From the NCBI RefSeq assembly GCF_018837975.1, contig NZ_JAGSOY010000007.1, positions 62,001-126,000 of the forward strand: a stretch of 64,000 nucleotides of DNA, written 5' to 3'. This DNA comes from Zooshikella harenae. Its GTDB lineage: Bacteria > Pseudomonadota > Gammaproteobacteria > Pseudomonadales > Zooshikellaceae. Made by a program: the position numbers and the translations under genes. The notes under the pieces are model-generated. The model did no database searches, had not been told where the DNA came from, and worked only from the letters and a program-made list of their open reading frames with translations. Below, one piece after another: positions 18,532 through 40,167 of this stretch; position 1 is the first letter of the stretch; each line of letters begins with the position of its first letter.

Positions 18532-19266
18532 ATGCTGAAAAATCAAGAAGGCTTAACAATCCCTAATATTAACATTCAAGCTAGAGTCAATAATGATTGG
18601 CAAACTCTAACTACAAATGACTTATTTCAAAACAAACGCGTTATCGTATTTGGTTTACCAGGTGCCTTCACCCCTACCTGCTCATCCAGTCATTTACCGC
18701 GTTATGATGAGCTGGCACCTGTATTCTTTGCGAATGGTATTGACGACATTTTGTGTGTATCTGTAAATGATACGTTTGTAATGAATGCCTGGCAGCAGGA
18801 TCAAAAATTACAACATGTCAAAATGCTACCTGATGGCAATGCTGCTTTGACAGAAGCAGTTGGAATGTTAGTGGATAAAACTGATCTAGGGTTTGGTAAG
18901 CGTAGCTGGCGTTATGCAATGGTGGTAAATGATGGCGTAATAGAAAAAATGTTTATTGAGCCAGAAAAACCAGGTGACCCCTTTGAAGTATCCGATGCAG
19001 ATACCATGCTGAGTTATGTTTGTCCTCAAGCACAAGAGCCTGCGTATTATACCCTTTTCACCAAGGCAGGCTGTCCACACTGTGCTCGCGCCAAAGCGAT
19101 GCTTAACGAACATGATTTAGCCTATGAAGAAATTATTGTTCAACAAGAGGTAAGCCAACGCGGTCTCAGTGCCGTCACAGGTAAAAACACCGTACCTCAA
19201 GTCTTTCTTAAAGGTCAACATATTGGTGGTGCAGATCAGTTAGCTGAGTTCCTGGCAGAAGCTTAA
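18532..19266 (+). CDS. Hybrid peroxiredoxin 5-glutaredoxin peroxidase
   Basis: Cytoplasmic thiol peroxidase in which an N-terminal Prx5-type domain (residues 1-165) is fused to a C-terminal glutaredoxin (about 172-244). The peroxidatic Cys50 lies in GAFTPTCSSSHLP. The glutaredoxin active site is CPHC at 181-184, followed by the cis-Pro motif NTVPQVFLKGQHIGG. The family (Haemophilus PGdx, Chromatium GarA) reduces peroxides using glutathione or glutathione amide. AAAGGA precedes the start. The next gene, 117 nt downstream, encodes a flavoprotein disulfide reductase, a pairing also seen for GarA/GarB. A hairpin at 19301-19321 lies between them. Confidence 0.95.
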   Translation: MLKNQEGLTIPNINIQARVNNDWQTLTTNDLFQNKRVIVFGLPGAFTPTCSSSHLPRYDELAPVFFANGIDDILCVSVNDTFVMNAWQQDQKLQHVKMLPDGNAALTEAVGMLVDKTDLGFGKRSWRYAMVVNDGVIEKMFIEPEKPGDPFEVSDADTMLSYVCPQAQEPAYYTLFTKAGCPHCARAKAMLNEHDLAYEEIIVQQEVSQRGLSAVTGKNTVPQVFLKGQHIGGADQLAEFLAEA

Positions 19267-21793: not shown

Positions 21794-22675
21794 ATGGTTT
21801 TGTTTAGAATTAGCCGACTAGTGCTTGCACAACATGTTTCTCTTATAGTATGTAGCCTATCTGTTATCCTATTATTCATCCAAACATCATCACCCGAAAT
21901 ACTAATAACCTTACCTATCATTATTATCGCACAGGTACTGGGTATAGTTGACCAAATGCGTTCTCATTACTATCAACGCTCACCACTCAAAAATACTACA
22001 AAAGCATCTCCAACTGCACTGAAATTATTTTCATTTAACAAACTATGTCAGTTTTTTTCAAAAAAAACCTCTGACCAGACAGCGTTTGATAATTTAACTA
22101 TGGCTATTTTTTCCTTAAGTAAAAATAAAACATTAACGCCATTAAATAGGTATGCCAGTTTTCTGTTTAAACATTTCAATTTAGTTAATCAACAGGATTC
22201 AATTGCCCAAGCAGTAAACTCAATAAAACCAGGTGAAAATACGTTATTATCTATACCCACTTGTCAAACCACATTACCCATCCTTACCACGCTAATACCA
22301 CCACCTTCCGTGCACATAGATTCTTCACCAGCAACTGAGCACAAGGTCATATCAATCGTCCCTATTCCAGCTCAGTTAAAAAAAGTACAGCAAGATACGT
22401 CGTTACAACTGCTTCGTTTTATCAAACATGAACTCATCAACATCACAACACCAATAAGTTCGCTGAGCGAAGTACTTGTGATACTTATTCACAAATTACC
22501 TACAACCCCTAAACCAATAACAGATGACGTTACATTACAGAACACCTCCACTTTACAAGACATACTTCTTGCTGCTGATACTATCCAAAAAAGCACAACT
22601 CAACTAAAAACATTTACCAAGAACCTTAATAGCCAGGATTTTTTAGACAAATTTATGAGTACGACAAAACAATAA
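21794..22675 (+). CDS. Membrane protein ending in a histidine-kinase DHp-like domain without ATPase
   Basis: A 293 aa protein not assigned to a named family. Two membrane helices lie at about residues 8-28 and 32-52, with a cytoplasmic remainder. The last 90 residues resemble the dimerisation/phosphotransfer (DHp) domain of NtrY-like kinases. The H-box-like stretch KHELINITTPISSLSEV (His212) matches the HEIMNSLTPI style motif, and a second helix (LQDILLAADTIQKSTTQLKTF) follows. The protein then stops, with no HATPase domain in this or other frames downstream. It is followed after 14 nt by a binding-protein-like gene and then a hybrid kinase, suggesting an operon. A histidine-phosphotransfer or scaffold role is inference. 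Confidence 0.65.
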   Translation: MVLFRISRLVLAQHVSLIVCSLSVILLFIQTSSPEILITLPIIIIAQVLGIVDQMRSHYYQRSPLKNTTKASPTALKLFSFNKLCQFFSKKTSDQTAFDNLTMAIFSLSKNKTLTPLNRYASFLFKHFNLVNQQDSIAQAVNSIKPGENTLLSIPTCQTTLPILTTLIPPPSVHIDSSPATEHKVISIVPIPAQLKKVQQDTSLQLLRFIKHELINITTPISSLSEVLVILIHKLPTTPKPITDDVTLQNTSTLQDILLAADTIQKSTTQLKTFTKNLNSQDFLDKFMSTTKQ

Positions 22676-22689
22676 TAAGGATAAAAATA

Positions 22690-23910
22690 ATGAAAGCATT
22701 AACCCCCTTGGTAAGACCCTTAGCAAAAATATATAAACAAACATTACTTCCTGGTTTATCAAATCACTTTACAAGAATACTTAGTTTTTTTTCTTGGCCT
22801 ACATTCATAGTGTTATTTTCAACTATATTAATTATCCCAGAATCAATTGCTATTACAGATCCCACATCAACAACTGAAACATCACACTTATCACCAAAAA
22901 AACTATGTTTGACAGGCACTTCAGTAAAAACCAGTCCAGCTTATGGTGAAGCATTTATAAATGGCATCAAACTAGGACTTGCTGCAGAAGAAGAAAACCA
23001 TACAACGACCGAAGTCCATTTTTTCTCACCCTCTCCACTAGGCAGCATTAAAGCTGTAGAAAAGATGATTACCGCAGGTTGTGATGGAATTATTGGTTTT
23101 GACAGTGCAAATGATATAATCCCTGTTAGGGATTTATTCAACAAGCATAAAACTCCACTTATTTCACTTTACACTCCCATCACGACAGAAATAAACAGAC
23201 CCTATATTTATTCAATGCAACGGCCAATTGAGGACAACGTTAAGCATATTCTTAACAGCGTCTTTACCAAACAAAAATTTAAAAATATATTACTTATCAC
23301 TTCAATTGATAAGTCCAGAATGAGAGATTACCAAAAAGCTTTTACTCAAGCGCTAAAGGCAAGAAATCAACCTTTTACCGATACTAACATTACTGAAATT
23401 AACCCGACGATTGAAAACATTATCCCATTTTTTGAAAAAGACAATAAACCTGATTTGGTTGTTTTACTTACCAGATCCAGCTTATCTGCTAAAATTGTTA
23501 ACTATATTCAACAAAACACTCAAAAACACAACACAACCTTTATTGGTACTGTCAGTTGGGGATCAAGTAAATTTCAACCCTTCTTTGATCGTCTCAAAGA
23601 AAAAGAGATAACCGCATACTTCACTCGTCAAAATACGTTCTTCGACCCAGATCCAGACTTTCAAGCCATAATAGAACAGTATCGTTCAACATATCATAAA
23701 GAACCAATGGTCATTTCTCTTTTAGCCTACGACGCCGCACGTATTTTTAATCGTTATTTTGCTCAAGCTAGTCATCCTCAACGAAATCCCTTTGCAGGAA
23801 TTAACTATCATGGGGTAACAGGAGTTGAGTTCAACGCTAATGGCAACATAGCTTATCACAAATTATTTACGATGAAAGTGACGCCAGATGGGTACAGGCT
23901 CAGTGAGTAG
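22690..23910 (+). CDS. Membrane-anchored ABC-type branched-chain amino-acid-like binding protein
   Basis: A 406 aa protein of the type-1 periplasmic-binding (leucine-binding, Peripla_BP_6) superfamily. An N-terminal hydrophobic segment (about residues 33-55) serves as signal or anchor. Then come GEAFINGIKLGLAAEEEN, VEKMITAGCDGIIGF, TPLISLYTPIT, KPDLVVLLTRSSL and the C-terminal YDAARIFNRYF block. No permease or ATPase genes are near. It sits between the DHp-like protein and a hybrid kinase and overlaps the latter by 23 nt, so a ligand-sensing role for the kinase is likely (inference). AAGGA precedes the start. Confidence 0.82.
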   Translation: MKALTPLVRPLAKIYKQTLLPGLSNHFTRILSFFSWPTFIVLFSTILIIPESIAITDPTSTTETSHLSPKKLCLTGTSVKTSPAYGEAFINGIKLGLAAEEENHTTTEVHFFSPSPLGSIKAVEKMITAGCDGIIGFDSANDIIPVRDLFNKHKTPLISLYTPITTEINRPYIYSMQRPIEDNVKHILNSVFTKQKFKNILLITSIDKSRMRDYQKAFTQALKARNQPFTDTNITEINPTIENIIPFFEKDNKPDLVVLLTRSSLSAKIVNYIQQNTQKHNTTFIGTVSWGSSKFQPFFDRLKEKEITAYFTRQNTFFDPDPDFQAIIEQYRSTYHKEPMVISLLAYDAARIFNRYFAQASHPQRNPFAGINYHGVTGVEFNANGNIAYHKLFTMKVTPDGYRLSE

Positions 23911-26302
23911 TTATCCTCAAAAAAAATCTATCGTCTGGATCAGTGTTGTTTTCTTTCTGTCATTAATTATTATTCAAACAACACTGATTACCTTTGCTAT
24001 TATCATTGGACTAAAACTGCAAAAACAGGAAGTGATTAACCGTGCAGCCAGTTTTGTCAACTTCATTGACAATAACACAAAAGAAGAAATTATCCTTCAA
24101 GTTATCTCTAATAATTATCAGGCGCTTGAATTTATTAAGTTTAATATTCTTGCTCACTCAAACTTAACGGGTTTAGCCATTGGCAATAAAAAAGTTATTG
24201 AAAACTGGTTAATTGACAGAGCCCAATGTCACATAATTCCCTATCAATCTACCACTTGCCATAATGAAAAAACAAATACTTTTATTGGTATTAACCCCAT
24301 CATATATAACAATAAAACAGTCGTTTATGTCGCTAAAGAAATTGCATTACCTTTGGAGATTGGCTCAAACAGTGTTTTTTGGCTCTGCATTACGATTATC
24401 ATTACTTTCTTAGTTAATATTAATGGCATTCTGTTTTTTTACAAAAAATATGTTATTCATGACATCAATAAGCTAGTCAATACTTTTGATGGTTTACATA
24501 TCAAAAAGACAACGACATTTAATGTACTTGAATATAATATTGTTTACGACAAACTTCTTGAATTTCAAACTAATTTAAACAAAGCTAATAAAAAAATTGC
24601 CAAAGCAAGAAGTTATCATACCATGGTGCAAACCACTCAGATGTTAGCTCATGATGTCCGTAAACCTTTTACTCTACTCAATACTGTTATAGAACTCATT
24701 TCCAGCATTGATAATATTTATGAAATTAAATCCATTTTAAAAAAGAGTATCACCCCTATACATGCAGCCCTTGACAACGTCAATAGCATGATTCAAGACA
24801 TTATGGAAATTGGCAACCCCCAACCACCCCTTGTTCAGAAAAAAACCGACTTAAAGAAAATATTACACCAGGCACTCATAGAGCAATTTCGATATAATGA
24901 TAACCTAACCATAGATCTTACCTATAACCTGCAACATTCCCACAAGCTGAATATAGATCCAAACCGTATTATTCGAGTACTCAGCAATATCATTTCCAAC
25001 GCAATTGAACATATGGGAGGGACAGGTAATATATGGTTTTTATCTAAAGAAATCGATAATAACTGGATGGAAATTGCTATTGGCAACAGTAATAGTTATG
25101 TTCCTAGAGAGTTTTTCTCAAAAATATTTGACCCATTTTTCTCACTCAATAAAAATAATGGCACTGGCTTAGGCTTAGCCATTACCAAAAAAATTGTGGA
25201 AGCCCATGGAGGTCAAATCAGTGTCACGTCGACCAAAGAAGCTGGCACCGAATTTAGCTTTACCCTACCGATAACGGATGAACTTTCTGTACAAACAATG
25301 GAAAGTCTTCTTTGCTCAAGCCAAGAGTACTATACCCAATATGCTATTAAAGCCGCGGAAAATCACTCAAATCCGCAACTTACACAACACGATGAAAATA
25401 AAATTGAAAAAGAATTATATGAGAAATTAAACCAACGCCAATTACACATCGTTATTATTGATGATGAACCTGTTTACCGGGATTACATTAAAGAATATAT
25501 CAGTACGTCTAACTATCTTAACCAACATATCACCATTGATGTGTTTGACACTACAGAACAAGCCCTTCGCCATAATTCAGTGCTTCGTCAAAGTGACATC
25601 ATTATTCTGGATATCGATTTTGGCAACAATTACATGAGCGGCTTAACGGCAGCCCCCATCATAAAAGCCCATTATCCATCAACCATACTGTGTATTCATT
25701 CAAATCGCTATGCACTTGAGTTACAAAGAAAAATTTCAGAAACAGGCGCCGACTTATCTATCCCTAAACCAATGACACGTACACATCTACTCAAACTTCT
25801 TGATAGTATTTGTCAAGCAACGTCCGTAAACACAACGTCAGCCCCCCTCCAGAAACCTGCTACTTACCCAGAACTTACTACAATCCAAAACGCCAAAGAA
25901 CAAATCACTGATCAATTATCACAAACCATACCATTCTATTTTCAACCCGATTTTGTACAAATTGAGGATGACTCATTAATTCGAACCTGCTGGGAAATTA
26001 ATGCCAGTCAATATAACCTCAAAGGTGTCGCTTATGCCTCTTACCAACAACTGCTAACCACATTACCAAACATTCCACCAGACACACCTGTTTTTATTGA
26101 CGTACATTTATTGGATAGTGAAAAAGATGGCTTGCAAATTGCTCAAGAGCTTCATGAACGGGGATTTACTGATTTATATTTATCGACAGGAAACAGTGAA
26201 CACGAGTTAGCCCCTCCTGCTTGGATAAAACGTATTATTGGTAAAGACTTTCCTATTACATATCTACGCTATGGACAAAAAAATACAACACAAACTAGCT
26301 AA
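23888..26302 (+). CDS. Hybrid sensor histidine kinase with two receiver domains
   Basis: An 804 aa inner-membrane kinase. Two membrane helices (about residues 13-37 and 160-182) flank a small periplasmic region. The DHp box is MLAHDVRKPFTLL with His255. The ATPase retains NIISNAIEHM and NGTGLGLAITKKIVEAHGG. Receiver 1 (about 520-640) has VIIDDEP, Asp575 in ILDID and Lys in IPKP. Receiver 2 (about 678-795) has QIEDDSLIR, Asp738 in FIDVH, Thr in LSTGN and Lys in IGKDF, so both look phosphorylatable. There is no Hpt domain or DNA-binding output. The start overlaps the preceding binding-protein gene, implying co-translation; a GTG at 23903 is an alternative start. Confidence 0.88.
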   Translation: MGTGSVSSYPQKKSIVWISVVFFLSLIIIQTTLITFAIIIGLKLQKQEVINRAASFVNFIDNNTKEEIILQVISNNYQALEFIKFNILAHSNLTGLAIGNKKVIENWLIDRAQCHIIPYQSTTCHNEKTNTFIGINPIIYNNKTVVYVAKEIALPLEIGSNSVFWLCITIIITFLVNINGILFFYKKYVIHDINKLVNTFDGLHIKKTTTFNVLEYNIVYDKLLEFQTNLNKANKKIAKARSYHTMVQTTQMLAHDVRKPFTLLNTVIELISSIDNIYEIKSILKKSITPIHAALDNVNSMIQDIMEIGNPQPPLVQKKTDLKKILHQALIEQFRYNDNLTIDLTYNLQHSHKLNIDPNRIIRVLSNIISNAIEHMGGTGNIWFLSKEIDNNWMEIAIGNSNSYVPREFFSKIFDPFFSLNKNNGTGLGLAITKKIVEAHGGQISVTSTKEAGTEFSFTLPITDELSVQTMESLLCSSQEYYTQYAIKAAENHSNPQLTQHDENKIEKELYEKLNQRQLHIVIIDDEPVYRDYIKEYISTSNYLNQHITIDVFDTTEQALRHNSVLRQSDIIILDIDFGNNYMSGLTAAPIIKAHYPSTILCIHSNRYALELQRKISETGADLSIPKPMTRTHLLKLLDSICQATSVNTTSAPLQKPATYPELTTIQNAKEQITDQLSQTIPFYFQPDFVQIEDDSLIRTCWEINASQYNLKGVAYASYQQLLTTLPNIPPDTPVFIDVHLLDSEKDGLQIAQELHERGFTDLYLSTGNSEHELAPPAWIKRIIGKDFPITYLRYGQKNTTQTS

Positions 26303-37661: not shown

Positions 37662-38000
37662 TTAATCTGTGAGGGTTTCTTTTAGCAACCTTGATACAAT
37701 TTTAAACTCTTGCTGTAGCCCTGCAATTAATGACGAAATGGGTTCAAGTTGCTGTTCTCTTGCGAGGTTTTCAATTTCCCTTGCTTGTTGTGCAAGAGGG
37801 GTAATAAACATATTTAAACAACTTCCTTTGAGGCTGTGAGCCAGCTCCCTCATTTGTTCCGCATTGTGCTCTAAAAGCGCCTTATCCATTGCGGCAATCC
37901 GTTGTTCACTATCACGAATAAAGGTTTCCACCAGCTGATTATATTCATCCTCCATAACTTCTTGTAGTTCCTGCAACGCAGCTAAATCAATATGTTCCAT
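37662..38000 (-). CDS. Hpt domain protein (HptB-like)
   Basis: A 112 aa single-domain histidine phosphotransfer protein. The phospho-acceptor is His55 in ELAHSLKGSCLNM. It probably passes phosphate to the response regulator/phosphatase encoded just upstream. In Pseudomonas, HptB, HsbR and HsbA form a partner-switching pathway that couples sensor kinases to flagellar gene expression and biofilm. The same three types of protein are adjacent here within the flagellar operon, between fliJ and fliK. Confidence 0.9.
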   Translation of the reverse strand: MEHIDLAALQELQEVMEDEYNQLVETFIRDSEQRIAAMDKALLEHNAEQMRELAHSLKGSCLNMFITPLAQQAREIENLAREQQLEPISSLIAGLQQEFKIVSRLLKETLTD

Positions 38001-38023
38001 AGTGTTTCCTTACATCATATGCA

Positions 38024-39754
38024 TCAGTGATGCTCCTTACGAGCACTATCCAGCTCATTATTCCAACCATATTCAATAGTGACTTGGTTACCCACGTTGG
38101 AATAGTCTATCCGCCGACAAAAAGAACGTAGTAAATTTACTCCGCGACCATGGTAATTAGTATCTTGAGTGATACGGTTCAACATCTTCTGGTAGTCAAA
38201 CCCTGGCCCACTATCAGCAACAGTAATAATCAATACCCCCCCTTGCTGCTCAATCTTATGTTCCAGCCAAAAGCGAATAAAACCATTGTCTAATTGCTGA
38301 AGTCGACGCTCACGCTCCGCATAATATTGTGTAAAACCATGGAGTGAGGCTTTTAATGAAGAGTCCATACCCAAAACACCATGCTCTAAAGCATTGGAAT
38401 ACAGTTCAGCTAAAATGGTATACAACCGGCCACTGTGTAAATTCACTCCAGGAACTTGCATTAAGCAGTGCAAAATTAATGGTATTGGGTTATAGCTTTG
38501 TAGCGTCTCAGGACGAAACTCAAAAGAGGCCGACCAATTTCGTGCTCCACGTATGGTGCTGGGCTCTACTGGTACTGGCTTATCACTAAAACTCTCCCGA
38601 GGCACCATGCTGATCTCGATCATAGATAGATCATCTGTCGGCTCCCCAATAAAACTAAAAACAGCCTCTTTAATTTCATTAAAAAGCTGATCAGAGTCTT
38701 CGTTATTAGCAAATACTGCTTTTAGACGCTCCTCACCAAAAAAATGTTTCTGGTCATCTTGTGCTTCAATAACACCATCGGACCAAAGATAAAGCCGATC
38801 ACCGTACTCAACCTCAATAATTTCATAGCCTGTATCAAACTTATCTGGAGACAAAATACCTAACGGTAACCATTTTGAAGAAAGGACATCAAGTGTTTTG
38901 GATTTAGCTCGGTATAGATAACAGTCTGGAAGCCCTCCAATCCAAACCTTCATGACTTTACTATCAAAGTCCACATCCACCATGCCACCACAGCAAAAAC
39001 CACTGACAGGCAACACCTGTTTCATTTTACTGTTCACCTCACTAAGAATCTCTGGCATAGAAAAGCCTTTTGCTACCATATGGTAAAAAATTTCAGCCAG
39101 AGGCATAGCGCCAATCGCTGCAGGTAAACCATGTCCGGCAAAGTCCCCAATGAATACCAACATTCCACCAGAGGGTTTACGTGCAGCAATTAATACATCG
39201 CCATTAAACATGGCATAAGGTGACTGTAAATGCTGTAAGTTATGAGCATTCAAGCAACCAGAGTGAGCGACTTTATCAAAAATCTCCTTAGCAAAAGCCT
39301 GCTCCTGAAGTAGTCGCTTATTGTGACCAGCAATCTTATCCCGCTGAACTTGCAACGTATGATGCATCATCCGCATTCGGTTAAATGCATTGATTTTGGC
39401 CTGCAAAATCAATGGGCTGTAGGGCTTTGATAAAAAATCATCCCCCCCTGCATCTAAGCATTCCGCAAGAGACTGAGCATCTTTTAACGAAGTAAGAAAA
39501 ATGACAGGAACCAACTCTTCACCTGCCAGCTGCTTAATTTGCCGAGCAGCCTCATAGCCACTCATTACTGGCATTAAGACATCAAGTAAAACCAGCTGGG
39601 GGCGCTCAAGGAGAAATAGCTCAACGGCCTGTTGGCCATCTTCTGCCGTTACTACGCGATGACCCTGCTTTTGAACCAATGTCCGCAAGATCATCCGATC
39701 GGTTTCAGAATCATCCGCAACCAAAATTTTGAGAGAACGCTCAGCCAGCTCCAT
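38024..39754 (-). CDS. Response regulator with PP2C phosphatase and anti-sigma kinase-like domain (HsbR-like)
   Basis: A 576 aa three-part protein. The receiver is at residues 8-125 (VADDSETDR; Asp58 in LLDVLMP; Lys in LSKPY). A PP2C/SpoIIE-type phosphatase spans about 175-390 (FIGDFAGHGLPAAIGAMPL, LYLWSDGVIEAQD, PTDDLSMIEI). A C-terminal GHKL/HATPase domain resembles anti-sigma kinases (about 430-570; ELYSNALEHGVLG, ADSGPGFDYQKM). By analogy with HsbR it would phosphorylate or dephosphorylate the adjacent STAS protein depending on Hpt input. It lies 23 nt before hpt and 19 nt after the STAS gene. Confidence 0.9.
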   Translation of the reverse strand: MELAERSLKILVADDSETDRMILRTLVQKQGHRVVTAEDGQQAVELFLLERPQLVLLDVLMPVMSGYEAARQIKQLAGEELVPVIFLTSLKDAQSLAECLDAGGDDFLSKPYSPLILQAKINAFNRMRMMHHTLQVQRDKIAGHNKRLLQEQAFAKEIFDKVAHSGCLNAHNLQHLQSPYAMFNGDVLIAARKPSGGMLVFIGDFAGHGLPAAIGAMPLAEIFYHMVAKGFSMPEILSEVNSKMKQVLPVSGFCCGGMVDVDFDSKVMKVWIGGLPDCYLYRAKSKTLDVLSSKWLPLGILSPDKFDTGYEIIEVEYGDRLYLWSDGVIEAQDDQKHFFGEERLKAVFANNEDSDQLFNEIKEAVFSFIGEPTDDLSMIEISMVPRESFSDKPVPVEPSTIRGARNWSASFEFRPETLQSYNPIPLILHCLMQVPGVNLHSGRLYTILAELYSNALEHGVLGMDSSLKASLHGFTQYYAERERRLQQLDNGFIRFWLEHKIEQQGGVLIITVADSGPGFDYQKMLNRITQDTNYHGRGVNLLRSFCRRIDYSNVGNQVTIEYGWNNELDSARKEHH

Positions 39755-39773
39755 GATGTATCACATTATTTAG

Positions 39774-40079
39774 TTACTGAATGGAGAAAAGCTGTTCGAA
39801 GTTCGAGATGAGCAAGATTTTTTTTACGTCCGGTTTACAGTTAACAATTTGAATATTAGCTGTATCACCTCCTGCATGATCGCGTAACAAGAGCAGCATG
39901 CCTAAGGCAGAACTATCAAGGTAAGTTGTTTCATTAAGATCAATAGTGTACTGATTTGGCAACTTATCCGTACGTTCGTATGCATCTCTAAAAGATTGAT
40001 GCTCACTAAAGTCAAACCGTCCCTGAATGCGAATGGTGAGCTCAGATCCATCCTCGGATTGTATGGCAGTTACGGCCAT
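39774..40079 (-). CDS. STAS-domain anti-sigma factor antagonist (HsbA-like)
   Basis: A 101 aa STAS protein. The conserved phosphorylatable Ser (Ser56) lies in TTYLDSSALGMLLLL. I place the start at ATG 40079, with AAGGGGG 5 nt upstream; a TTG at 40118 has no support. Partner proteins of this kind bind an anti-sigma factor (FlgM in the Pseudomonas HsbA pathway) when unphosphorylated. The neighbouring phosphatase/kinase probably sets its state. Confidence 0.9.
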   Translation of the reverse strand: MAVTAIQSEDGSELTIRIQGRFDFSEHQSFRDAYERTDKLPNQYTIDLNETTYLDSSALGMLLLLRDHAGGDTANIQIVNCKPDVKKILLISNFEQLFSIQ

Positions 40080-40167
40080 GAATTCCCCCTTGCTCCTTTC
40101 CCAACCGATGGCTAACAAAATGCTTTCAATAAAGCATAGCCTTTAATTATTAAAAGCACAGGTGCAG

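Follow-up and report, generated by a model that had tools for sequence, protein, structure and literature searches.

A three-gene locus of Zooshikella harenae is read here, tentatively and at a confidence a little short of even, as a split membrane phosphorelay in which the membrane protein P1, ending in a DHp-like hairpin, may serve a two-receiver hybrid histidine kinase, P3, as a histidine phosphotransferase and possibly as a phosphatase, in the manner of PhyT or ChpT. The locus lies on contig C345 (NZ_JAGSOY010000007.1) of a 5.9 Mb genome, within the window, by which is meant the whole 64,000-nucleotide stretch that was analysed; its remaining product, P2, is a predicted periplasmic-binding protein. 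The three genes are tightly spaced, with a gap of 14 nucleotides (nt) between P1 and P2 and an overlap of 23 nt between P2 and P3, in agreement with an earlier reading made from the sequence alone (the sequence-only reading), and the residues that it had singled out, His212 of P1 and His255, Asp575 and Asp738 of P3, are each found at those positions.

21794..22675, plus strand: P1, membrane protein of 293 amino acids (aa; from the list of open reading frames, ORFs), with a transmembrane (TM) hairpin at residues ~6-55, a variable linker, a middle segment at ~96-194 and a DHp-like hairpin at 195-290
22376..22498, plus strand: P1 DHp helix 1, residues 195-235, with the H-box HELIN..TP around His212 (nonsynonymous substitutions per nonsynonymous site, dN, 0.044; alignment of the His)
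22547..22663, plus strand: P1 DHp helix 2, residues 252-290 (dN 0.091; helix in a low-confidence model)
22690..23910, plus strand: P2, predicted secreted type-1 periplasmic-binding protein of 406 aa (ORF list; Peripla_BP_6, PF13458; hydrophobic segment at residues 30-57)
23888..26302, plus strand: P3, predicted membrane hybrid histidine kinase of 804 aa (ORF list), with DHp His255, HATPase, first receiver (REC1) Asp575 and second receiver (REC2) Asp738
25949..26281, plus strand: REC2, P3 residues 688-798 (hidden Markov model, HMM, of alignment A3; Asp column; low-confidence model)

In the proposed mechanism, P2 would bind a small periplasmic ligand and dock on the extracytoplasmic loop of P3, which lies between hydrophobic segments at residues 11-45 and 154-186. 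P3 would then autophosphorylate His255 and, judging from what is known of the family, hand the phosphoryl group to Asp575 of REC1, and His212 of P1 would exchange phosphoryl groups with the P3 receivers, the simplest route being from REC1 to His212 to REC2, or on to an unlinked regulator. The sequence-only reading had suggested that P1 could be the missing phosphotransfer partner between the receivers. A partner role is favoured because the P1 hairpin is strongly constrained and because small DHp partners recur near the kinase family, but "missing" is an overstatement because the genome encodes other Hpt proteins. The other suggestion of the sequence-only reading, a scaffold that heterodimerises with the kinase, was retained as a less likely rival.

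Conservation and architecture of P1

The same three genes occur in the same order in Z. ganghwensis, with identities of 61% for P1, 73% for P2 and 83% for P3; in that species P1 and P2 are 101 nt apart, and P1 terminates at the corresponding position. Between the two species, dN calculated by the Nei-Gojobori method over segments whose borders were chosen by the authors is 0.044 in helix 1 and 0.091 in helix 2 of the hairpin, 0.207 in the TM part, 0.385 in the middle segment, 0.597 in the loop that joins the helices and 0.628 in the linker, making the DHp hairpin helices the slowest-evolving part of P1. The synonymous rate, dS, is at least 0.61 in all segments, with synonymous sites in the hairpin saturated or nearly so. 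A HisKA-type motif consisting of the phosphoacceptor His, an acid at +1 and Asn at +4 is identical in the two species. This pattern bears on the possibility that P1 is what is left, still decaying, of a kinase pair whose ATPase domain and regulator have been lost. A related kinase of the sister genus does have an ATPase domain and adjoins a sigma-54 response regulator, and no such regulator is seen by eye beside P1; nevertheless, decay is very improbable and was rejected in view of the shared end point and the near-invariant hairpin in two species whose synonymous sites are saturated or nearly so.

The distribution of constraint also bears on the unlikely alternative that P1 is a pseudokinase regulator that binds P3 and shifts its balance of kinase and phosphatase activities without carrying phosphate, much as RocA acts on CsrS/CovS. 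The two TM helices and sensor-like middle of P1 would suit such a role, as would the fairly conserved TM region, and in the passages of PMC6635533 drawn on here RocA is proposed to act on CsrS in the membrane, its TM domains being sufficient. However, the strongest constraint falls on the phosphoacceptor hairpin, with its His, +1 acid and +4 Asn, and not on the TM part. RocA and P1 are alike as membrane accessory proteins of another kinase; the RocA mechanism differs in being a proposed binding mode, and phosphotransfer is not claimed in those same passages (PMC6635533).

Matches to P1 are found in four of 95 related genomes, its own included. Outside the genus they are limited to G003 (3.2e-8) and G002 (2.6e-5), cover query residues 82-228, and sit in ORFs that encode 357 and 360 aa. 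These genomes, with G004, form the sister genus, which we take to be Spartinivicinus. The G003 protein matches HATPase_c (E 2e-20) and neither HisKA nor PAS in Pfam, and it is encoded by a gene that overlaps one for a sigma-54 response regulator; the P1-like kinases lie 794 bp (G003) and 590 bp (G002) from a REC2 hybrid kinase. All four P1 homologues share His212, Leu214, Asn216, Ile217 and Thr219, so that the His is kept in four of four sequences from only two genera. G004 has no P1 match and a single REC2 kinase, whose REC2 resembles that of the second copy in G002 and G003, a copy that likewise has no P1-like partner. A scan of a species collection returned one P1 locus, that of Z. ganghwensis; it used two short P1 patterns outside the H-box and would therefore miss distant relatives. 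The trio is thus found together again in Z. ganghwensis, with a looser version in G467, described below.

The sequence-only reading of P1 as a two-helix membrane protein followed by a DHp stands as regards the TM hairpin but overlooked the middle segment between them, which occupies the position of a PAS domain and aligns with the N-terminal part of the intact sister-genus kinase. Models of PAS in Pfam match neither that segment nor the sister-genus kinase. P1 does stop before any ATPase domain, as had been noted, ending alike in both species: HATPase_c is absent from it in the Pfam scan, and inspection by eye of the 420 bases that follow shows no ATPase remnant in any of the three forward frames. 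Nor does Pfam match Hpt (PF01627) to P1 at E 1.

In profile-profile comparisons with 30 DHp domains, all from the Z. harenae genome itself, and 15 Hpt domains, the P1 hairpin scored 21.1 against DHp as a two-sequence profile and 25.6 as a four-sequence profile, versus 10.2 and 12.8 against Hpt. Among 77 control segments, which are two-sequence ortholog pairs from few loci, the four highest scores belong to the DHp of a P3 paralogue, the DHp of P3, an overlapping P3 segment and P1 itself (21.7), followed by the best non-DHp segment at 15.5. The DHp assignment has a second basis in the homology of P1 to the intact sister-genus kinase. The DHp that the sequence-only reading had called NtrY-type thus draws support from profile-profile scores and this homology, while Pfam, NCBIfam and a DHp HMM are silent on it; searches of PDB sequences with P1 profiles gave nothing usable.

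The hybrid kinase P3 and its binding protein

The domains that would make P3 a hybrid histidine kinase, namely a DHp with its His, HATPase_c and at least one receiver, are recognised in one chain. HATPase_c (PF02518) matches with E 5e-22 and REC1 matches Response_reg (PF00072) with E 3e-14; the match to HisKA (PF00512, E 0.0093) is under its cut-off, and His255 is supported by alignment. REC2 has no Pfam match. It is recognised by the HMM of A3, a REC2 alignment of six sequences, with E 1.8e-56, the alignment itself containing this sequence. Acidic residues, the phosphoacceptor Asp, Ser/Thr and Lys are present in both receivers, which bears out the description of the two as apparently intact, and the phosphoacceptor Asp column is retained in all 28 REC2 rows. 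REC2 ends shortly past the conserved Lys, and the proteins of L033, L034, L035, L051 and L052 likewise end within a few residues; the domain seems to lack alpha-5, because the protein stops so soon after this Lys. A model of REC1-REC2 has a predicted local distance difference test score (pLDDT) of 50, and a fold search with it returned mostly receivers over an aligned length of about one domain, not attributable to either one.

The G2 box of P3, GTGLGL, is present, and its ATPase domain (~357-463) has a dN of 0.08, indicating purifying selection. The G1 box is GNNNSYI in both paralogues of P3. In a coarse pattern test the canonical DxGxG is present in 25 of the 26 kinases of the same genome and in 16 of the 18 REC2 kinases whose stretch was compared, the exceptions among the latter being P3 and its Z. 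ganghwensis orthologue. It is not certain that P3 would act as an autokinase, because its own G1 box is non-canonical. Alternatively, the pair might be a split kinase, the P3 ATPase domain phosphorylating His212 in trans and P1 addressing another regulator, for which Hik36 (Hpt) and Hik43 (CA domain) offer a precedent in the part of PMC7656254 available. This is improbable: by eye, the DHp sequence of P1 bears little resemblance to that of P3, and P3 has its own His255 as well as an atypical G1 box.

The statement that P3 has no Hpt is true of the protein; the genome, on the other hand, has 18 Hpt matches, one of them in the window, ~11 kb downstream of the trio.

37662..38000, minus strand: stand-alone Hpt of 112 aa, outside the operon (PF01627, 55.6 bits)

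This gene, one for a receiver-phosphatase-ATPase-like protein and one for a STAS-like protein stand in a row among flagellar genes on the minus strand (window 37662-40118, by eye), an arrangement that we take to resemble HptB-HsbR-HsbA of Pseudomonas. P3 might accordingly signal through an unlinked Hpt such as this HptB-like protein, leaving P1 as only a phosphatase or a bystander sensor. The stand-alone Hpt in its HptB-HsbR-HsbA-like cluster of the same window would fit, and orphan hybrid kinases feed HptB in Pseudomonas aeruginosa, as described in the accessible part of PMC5085249. However, P3 can be likened to those kinases by functional analogy only, and the conserved P1 hairpin would be left unexplained, making this explanation quite unlikely.

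P2 matches PF13458 with E 1.3e-10 and 41.9 bits, above the cut-off of 31.7, and no permease is seen by eye among the ORFs around it, in keeping with its description as a type-1 binding protein without transporter genes. Searches against PDB sequences with P2 gave nothing usable. The operon (21794-26302) has a G+C content of 35%, compared with 42% for the window, which might reflect horizontal gain.

REC2 kinases and small DHp-type partners in other lineages

A separate DHp partner recurs near predicted REC2 kinases and is not universal: a small separate DHp-type gene lies within 1.3 kb of nine of 28 REC2 genes, a count that stands without a background rate of small kinases near unrelated hybrid kinases, four further cases are doubtful, and 15 have none. 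The A3 profile matched ten of 369 genomes of the class at 1e-4 (the Z. harenae genome included) and all five genomes of its family; at 1e-6 it matched 1/3, 1/1, 3/7, 6/11 and 1/3 genomes in five other orders, in partly overlapping sets. The 28 genes with their surroundings come from the window and 27 further stretches, four of them on contigs shorter than 8 kb, and are not independent, since they include two Zooshikella species, two sister-genus species, the pair G462/G463 and two genes of G207. A receiver is recognised ahead of REC2 in 12 of them (window, L013, L014, L015, L034, L035, L036, L042, L051, L052, L055 and L058); in L053 REC2 directly follows the ATPase domain, and in L016 and L017 it stands alone. 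The nine partners are as follows.

Window and L013: P1-type partner, ATPase-less
L014 and L015: intact kinase partner, 590-794 bp away
L051 and L052: partners of 249 aa (HATPase_c intact, E 3e-17) and 274 aa (HATPase_c intact, E 3e-18)
L038: partner of 263 aa, HATPase_c intact, E 2e-10
L037 and L041 (the G207 pair): partners of 260 aa with an HDLGN box, recognised by alignment, not by HMM; no HATPase or HisKA match in Pfam

In G462, G463, G185 and, twice, G207, a DHp-type gene encoding 249-274 aa lies 2-213 bp from the REC2 kinase; HATPase_c is clear in the first three and was not found in either G207 copy. A kinase-core HMM built from kinases of the Z. harenae genome found the partners of L014, L015, L038, L051 and L052 unprompted and missed P1 and the G207 pair; it also found six other kinases 1.2-21.6 kb from a REC2 gene, two of which are the paralogue kinases. 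A profile of the five neighbour proteins (G207 twice, G185, G463 and G462) gave 23 PDB matches, all of them listed as kinases or sensor proteins.

The doubtful partners comprise proteins of 98 aa (L035, E 0.033), 85 aa (L039, E 0.069) and 84 aa (L056, E 0.12) together with, in L036, the N-terminal part of a regulator (E 4.7), all scored with a DHp HMM; these E-values are near noise, because a regulator without a DHp scored 0.096 in the same list. The 85- and 98-aa ORFs overlap the starts of related regulator ORFs, the L036 counterpart having its helical stretch in one chain, and in the 85-aa ORF the His is followed by Lys. The closest match to the trio outside Zooshikella, from an independent lineage, is the G467 locus (L056, 527-3893), where a type-1 binding protein (ANF_receptor, E 7e-9) ends 12 nt before the REC2 kinase and the 84-aa helical protein with its His, of doubtful type, converges on that kinase. 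As a single sequence this protein scored 22.3 against Hpt versus 13.9 against DHp in profile-profile comparison, and it is counted as doubtful because it is nearer the former. Directly beside a REC2 kinase, Pfam recognises a binding protein in L034 (family 5) and in L056; L043 has one 3 kb away. Candidates in L040, L051 and L052 were recognised by eye only and had no Pfam match to such a family; the paired genes upstream of the G462 and G463 kinases, which look binding-protein-like by eye, were not used, as the three of them that were scanned had no Pfam match. For L111, one of the 15 genes without a partner, an ordinary kinase-regulator pair lies at a distance of 1.8 kb.

A second system is present in both Zooshikella genomes (G000:C224 and G001:C15), with a gene for a solute-binding protein, assigned by Pfam to family 5 in G001, ahead of one for a kinase whose sole receiver is REC1; its REC2 is a separate protein of 191 aa encoded 2.6-2.9 kb from the kinase gene.

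L017 9400-14819, minus strand: second system (gene reading)
L016 4713-9836, plus strand: second system (gene reading)

One may speculate that P1 serves both Zooshikella systems in trans. On a broader view, which is possible though rather doubtful, REC2 hybrid kinases would form a gammaproteobacterial family, marked by a C-terminal receiver that ends shortly past its conserved Lys, with a separately encoded DHp relay between receivers, in which the conversion of a kinase into a phosphotransferase can be followed. The series of partners would, with equal reserve, run from an intact small kinase through one with an unrecognisable ATPase domain to the bare membrane-anchored DHp of Zooshikella, and possibly to a mini-DHp of 84-98 aa beside or fused to a regulator.

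Several results weigh against the phosphorelay with P1 as phosphotransferase. Pfam and NCBIfam find no credible domain in P1, its DHp is missed by a DHp HMM built from kinases of its own genome (E 5.7), its profile-profile match to DHp spans 26 columns and helix 1 only, and an AlphaFold2 model from two sequences, with helices at residues 193-233 and 251-279, is poor (mean pLDDT 38). At +1 to His212 Zooshikella has Glu, the sister genus Lys. The G1 box of P3, which reads GNSNSYV in both Zooshikella species, departs from DxGxG, and the proteins behind the 18 Hpt matches (PF01627) in the genome, 17 of them above the cut-off, could fill the role proposed for P1. To these are added the 15 REC2 genes for which no DHp-type neighbour was found, the missing background rate for the other nine, and the second REC2 system of the Z. 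harenae genome, which has no DHp protein among neighbouring ORFs.

Further features were seen near REC2 genes. In L039 (6746-8446, minus strand) a membrane protein near a full hybrid kinase has a DHp-like stretch (by eye) in which Asn replaces His, then REC2, with no Pfam match. L055 (5532-8132, plus strand) encodes a REC2 kinase that begins with a methyltransferase domain (Pfam, E 7e-22), either an unusual fusion or a doubtful frame, and on the minus strand of L058 (7544-18001), L054 (9922-15999) and L042 (4873-9999) REC2 kinases are fused to or adjoin giant frames resembling nonribosomal peptide synthetases (by eye). Regulators of one shared family, which combine a receiver with a C-terminal domain of unknown type, lie near REC2 in L035 (3288-4277), L036 (8590-9816) and L039 (8918-9919), and near these regulators are small proteins resembling helix-turn-helix (HTH) regulators (by eye; one weak HTH_3 match).

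Relation to known signalling systems

LuxP-LuxQ and TorT-TorS combine a binding protein with a membrane hybrid kinase, as P2 and P3 would; we know of no separate ATPase-less DHp protein in either. In PhyT, a membrane protein of Sphingomonas melonis, a conserved His moves phosphate from receiver to receiver (PMC5898713, in the portion used), so that PhyT resembles P1, in its proposed role, as a membrane-bound phosphoryl carrier acting through a conserved His. PhyT differs in serving the PhyR/EcfG regulator, and that portion of PMC5898713 describes no two-receiver kinase or binding protein. ChpT of Caulobacter, whose fold is kinase-like, acts as a phosphotransferase and lacks autokinase activity, and both it and Spo0B use a DHp hairpin as phosphotransferase, as is proposed for P1 (PMC3433190, in the text available); ChpT, however, retains an altered ATPase-like domain, whereas P1 has none and has in addition a TM hairpin and a middle segment. 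In Hik36/Hik43 of Synechocystis a kinase is split over two proteins, with phosphoacceptor and ATPase on separate proteins as they would be in the trio, but the pair is of the CheA type with an Hpt domain and, as far as the accessible part of PMC7656254 goes, is not a two-receiver hybrid like P3.

A known relative thus exists for each part, and what is new is the combination, together with an ATPase domain lost by degrees next to a single kinase family. Searches of the open-licence full-text literature on ATPase-less or DHp-only kinases and on this composition, subscription papers being outside their scope, brought up the precedents above and, among the matches listed, no description of the three-gene combination; the sequence-only reading, too, knew of no described system composed in exactly this way. 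The trio varies known bacterial signalling in a real though modest way. Should P1 carry phosphate, it would be a kinase-derived phosphotransferase without a trace of the ATPase domain, with relatives that are intermediates beside related kinases, and it could then be tested how a histidine kinase is converted into a phosphotransferase and by what route a two-receiver kinase that lacks an Hpt relays its signal.

Elsewhere in the window, a peroxiredoxin-glutaredoxin-like fusion (18532-19266) and, after it, a gene resembling one for dihydrolipoamide dehydrogenase are seen by eye.

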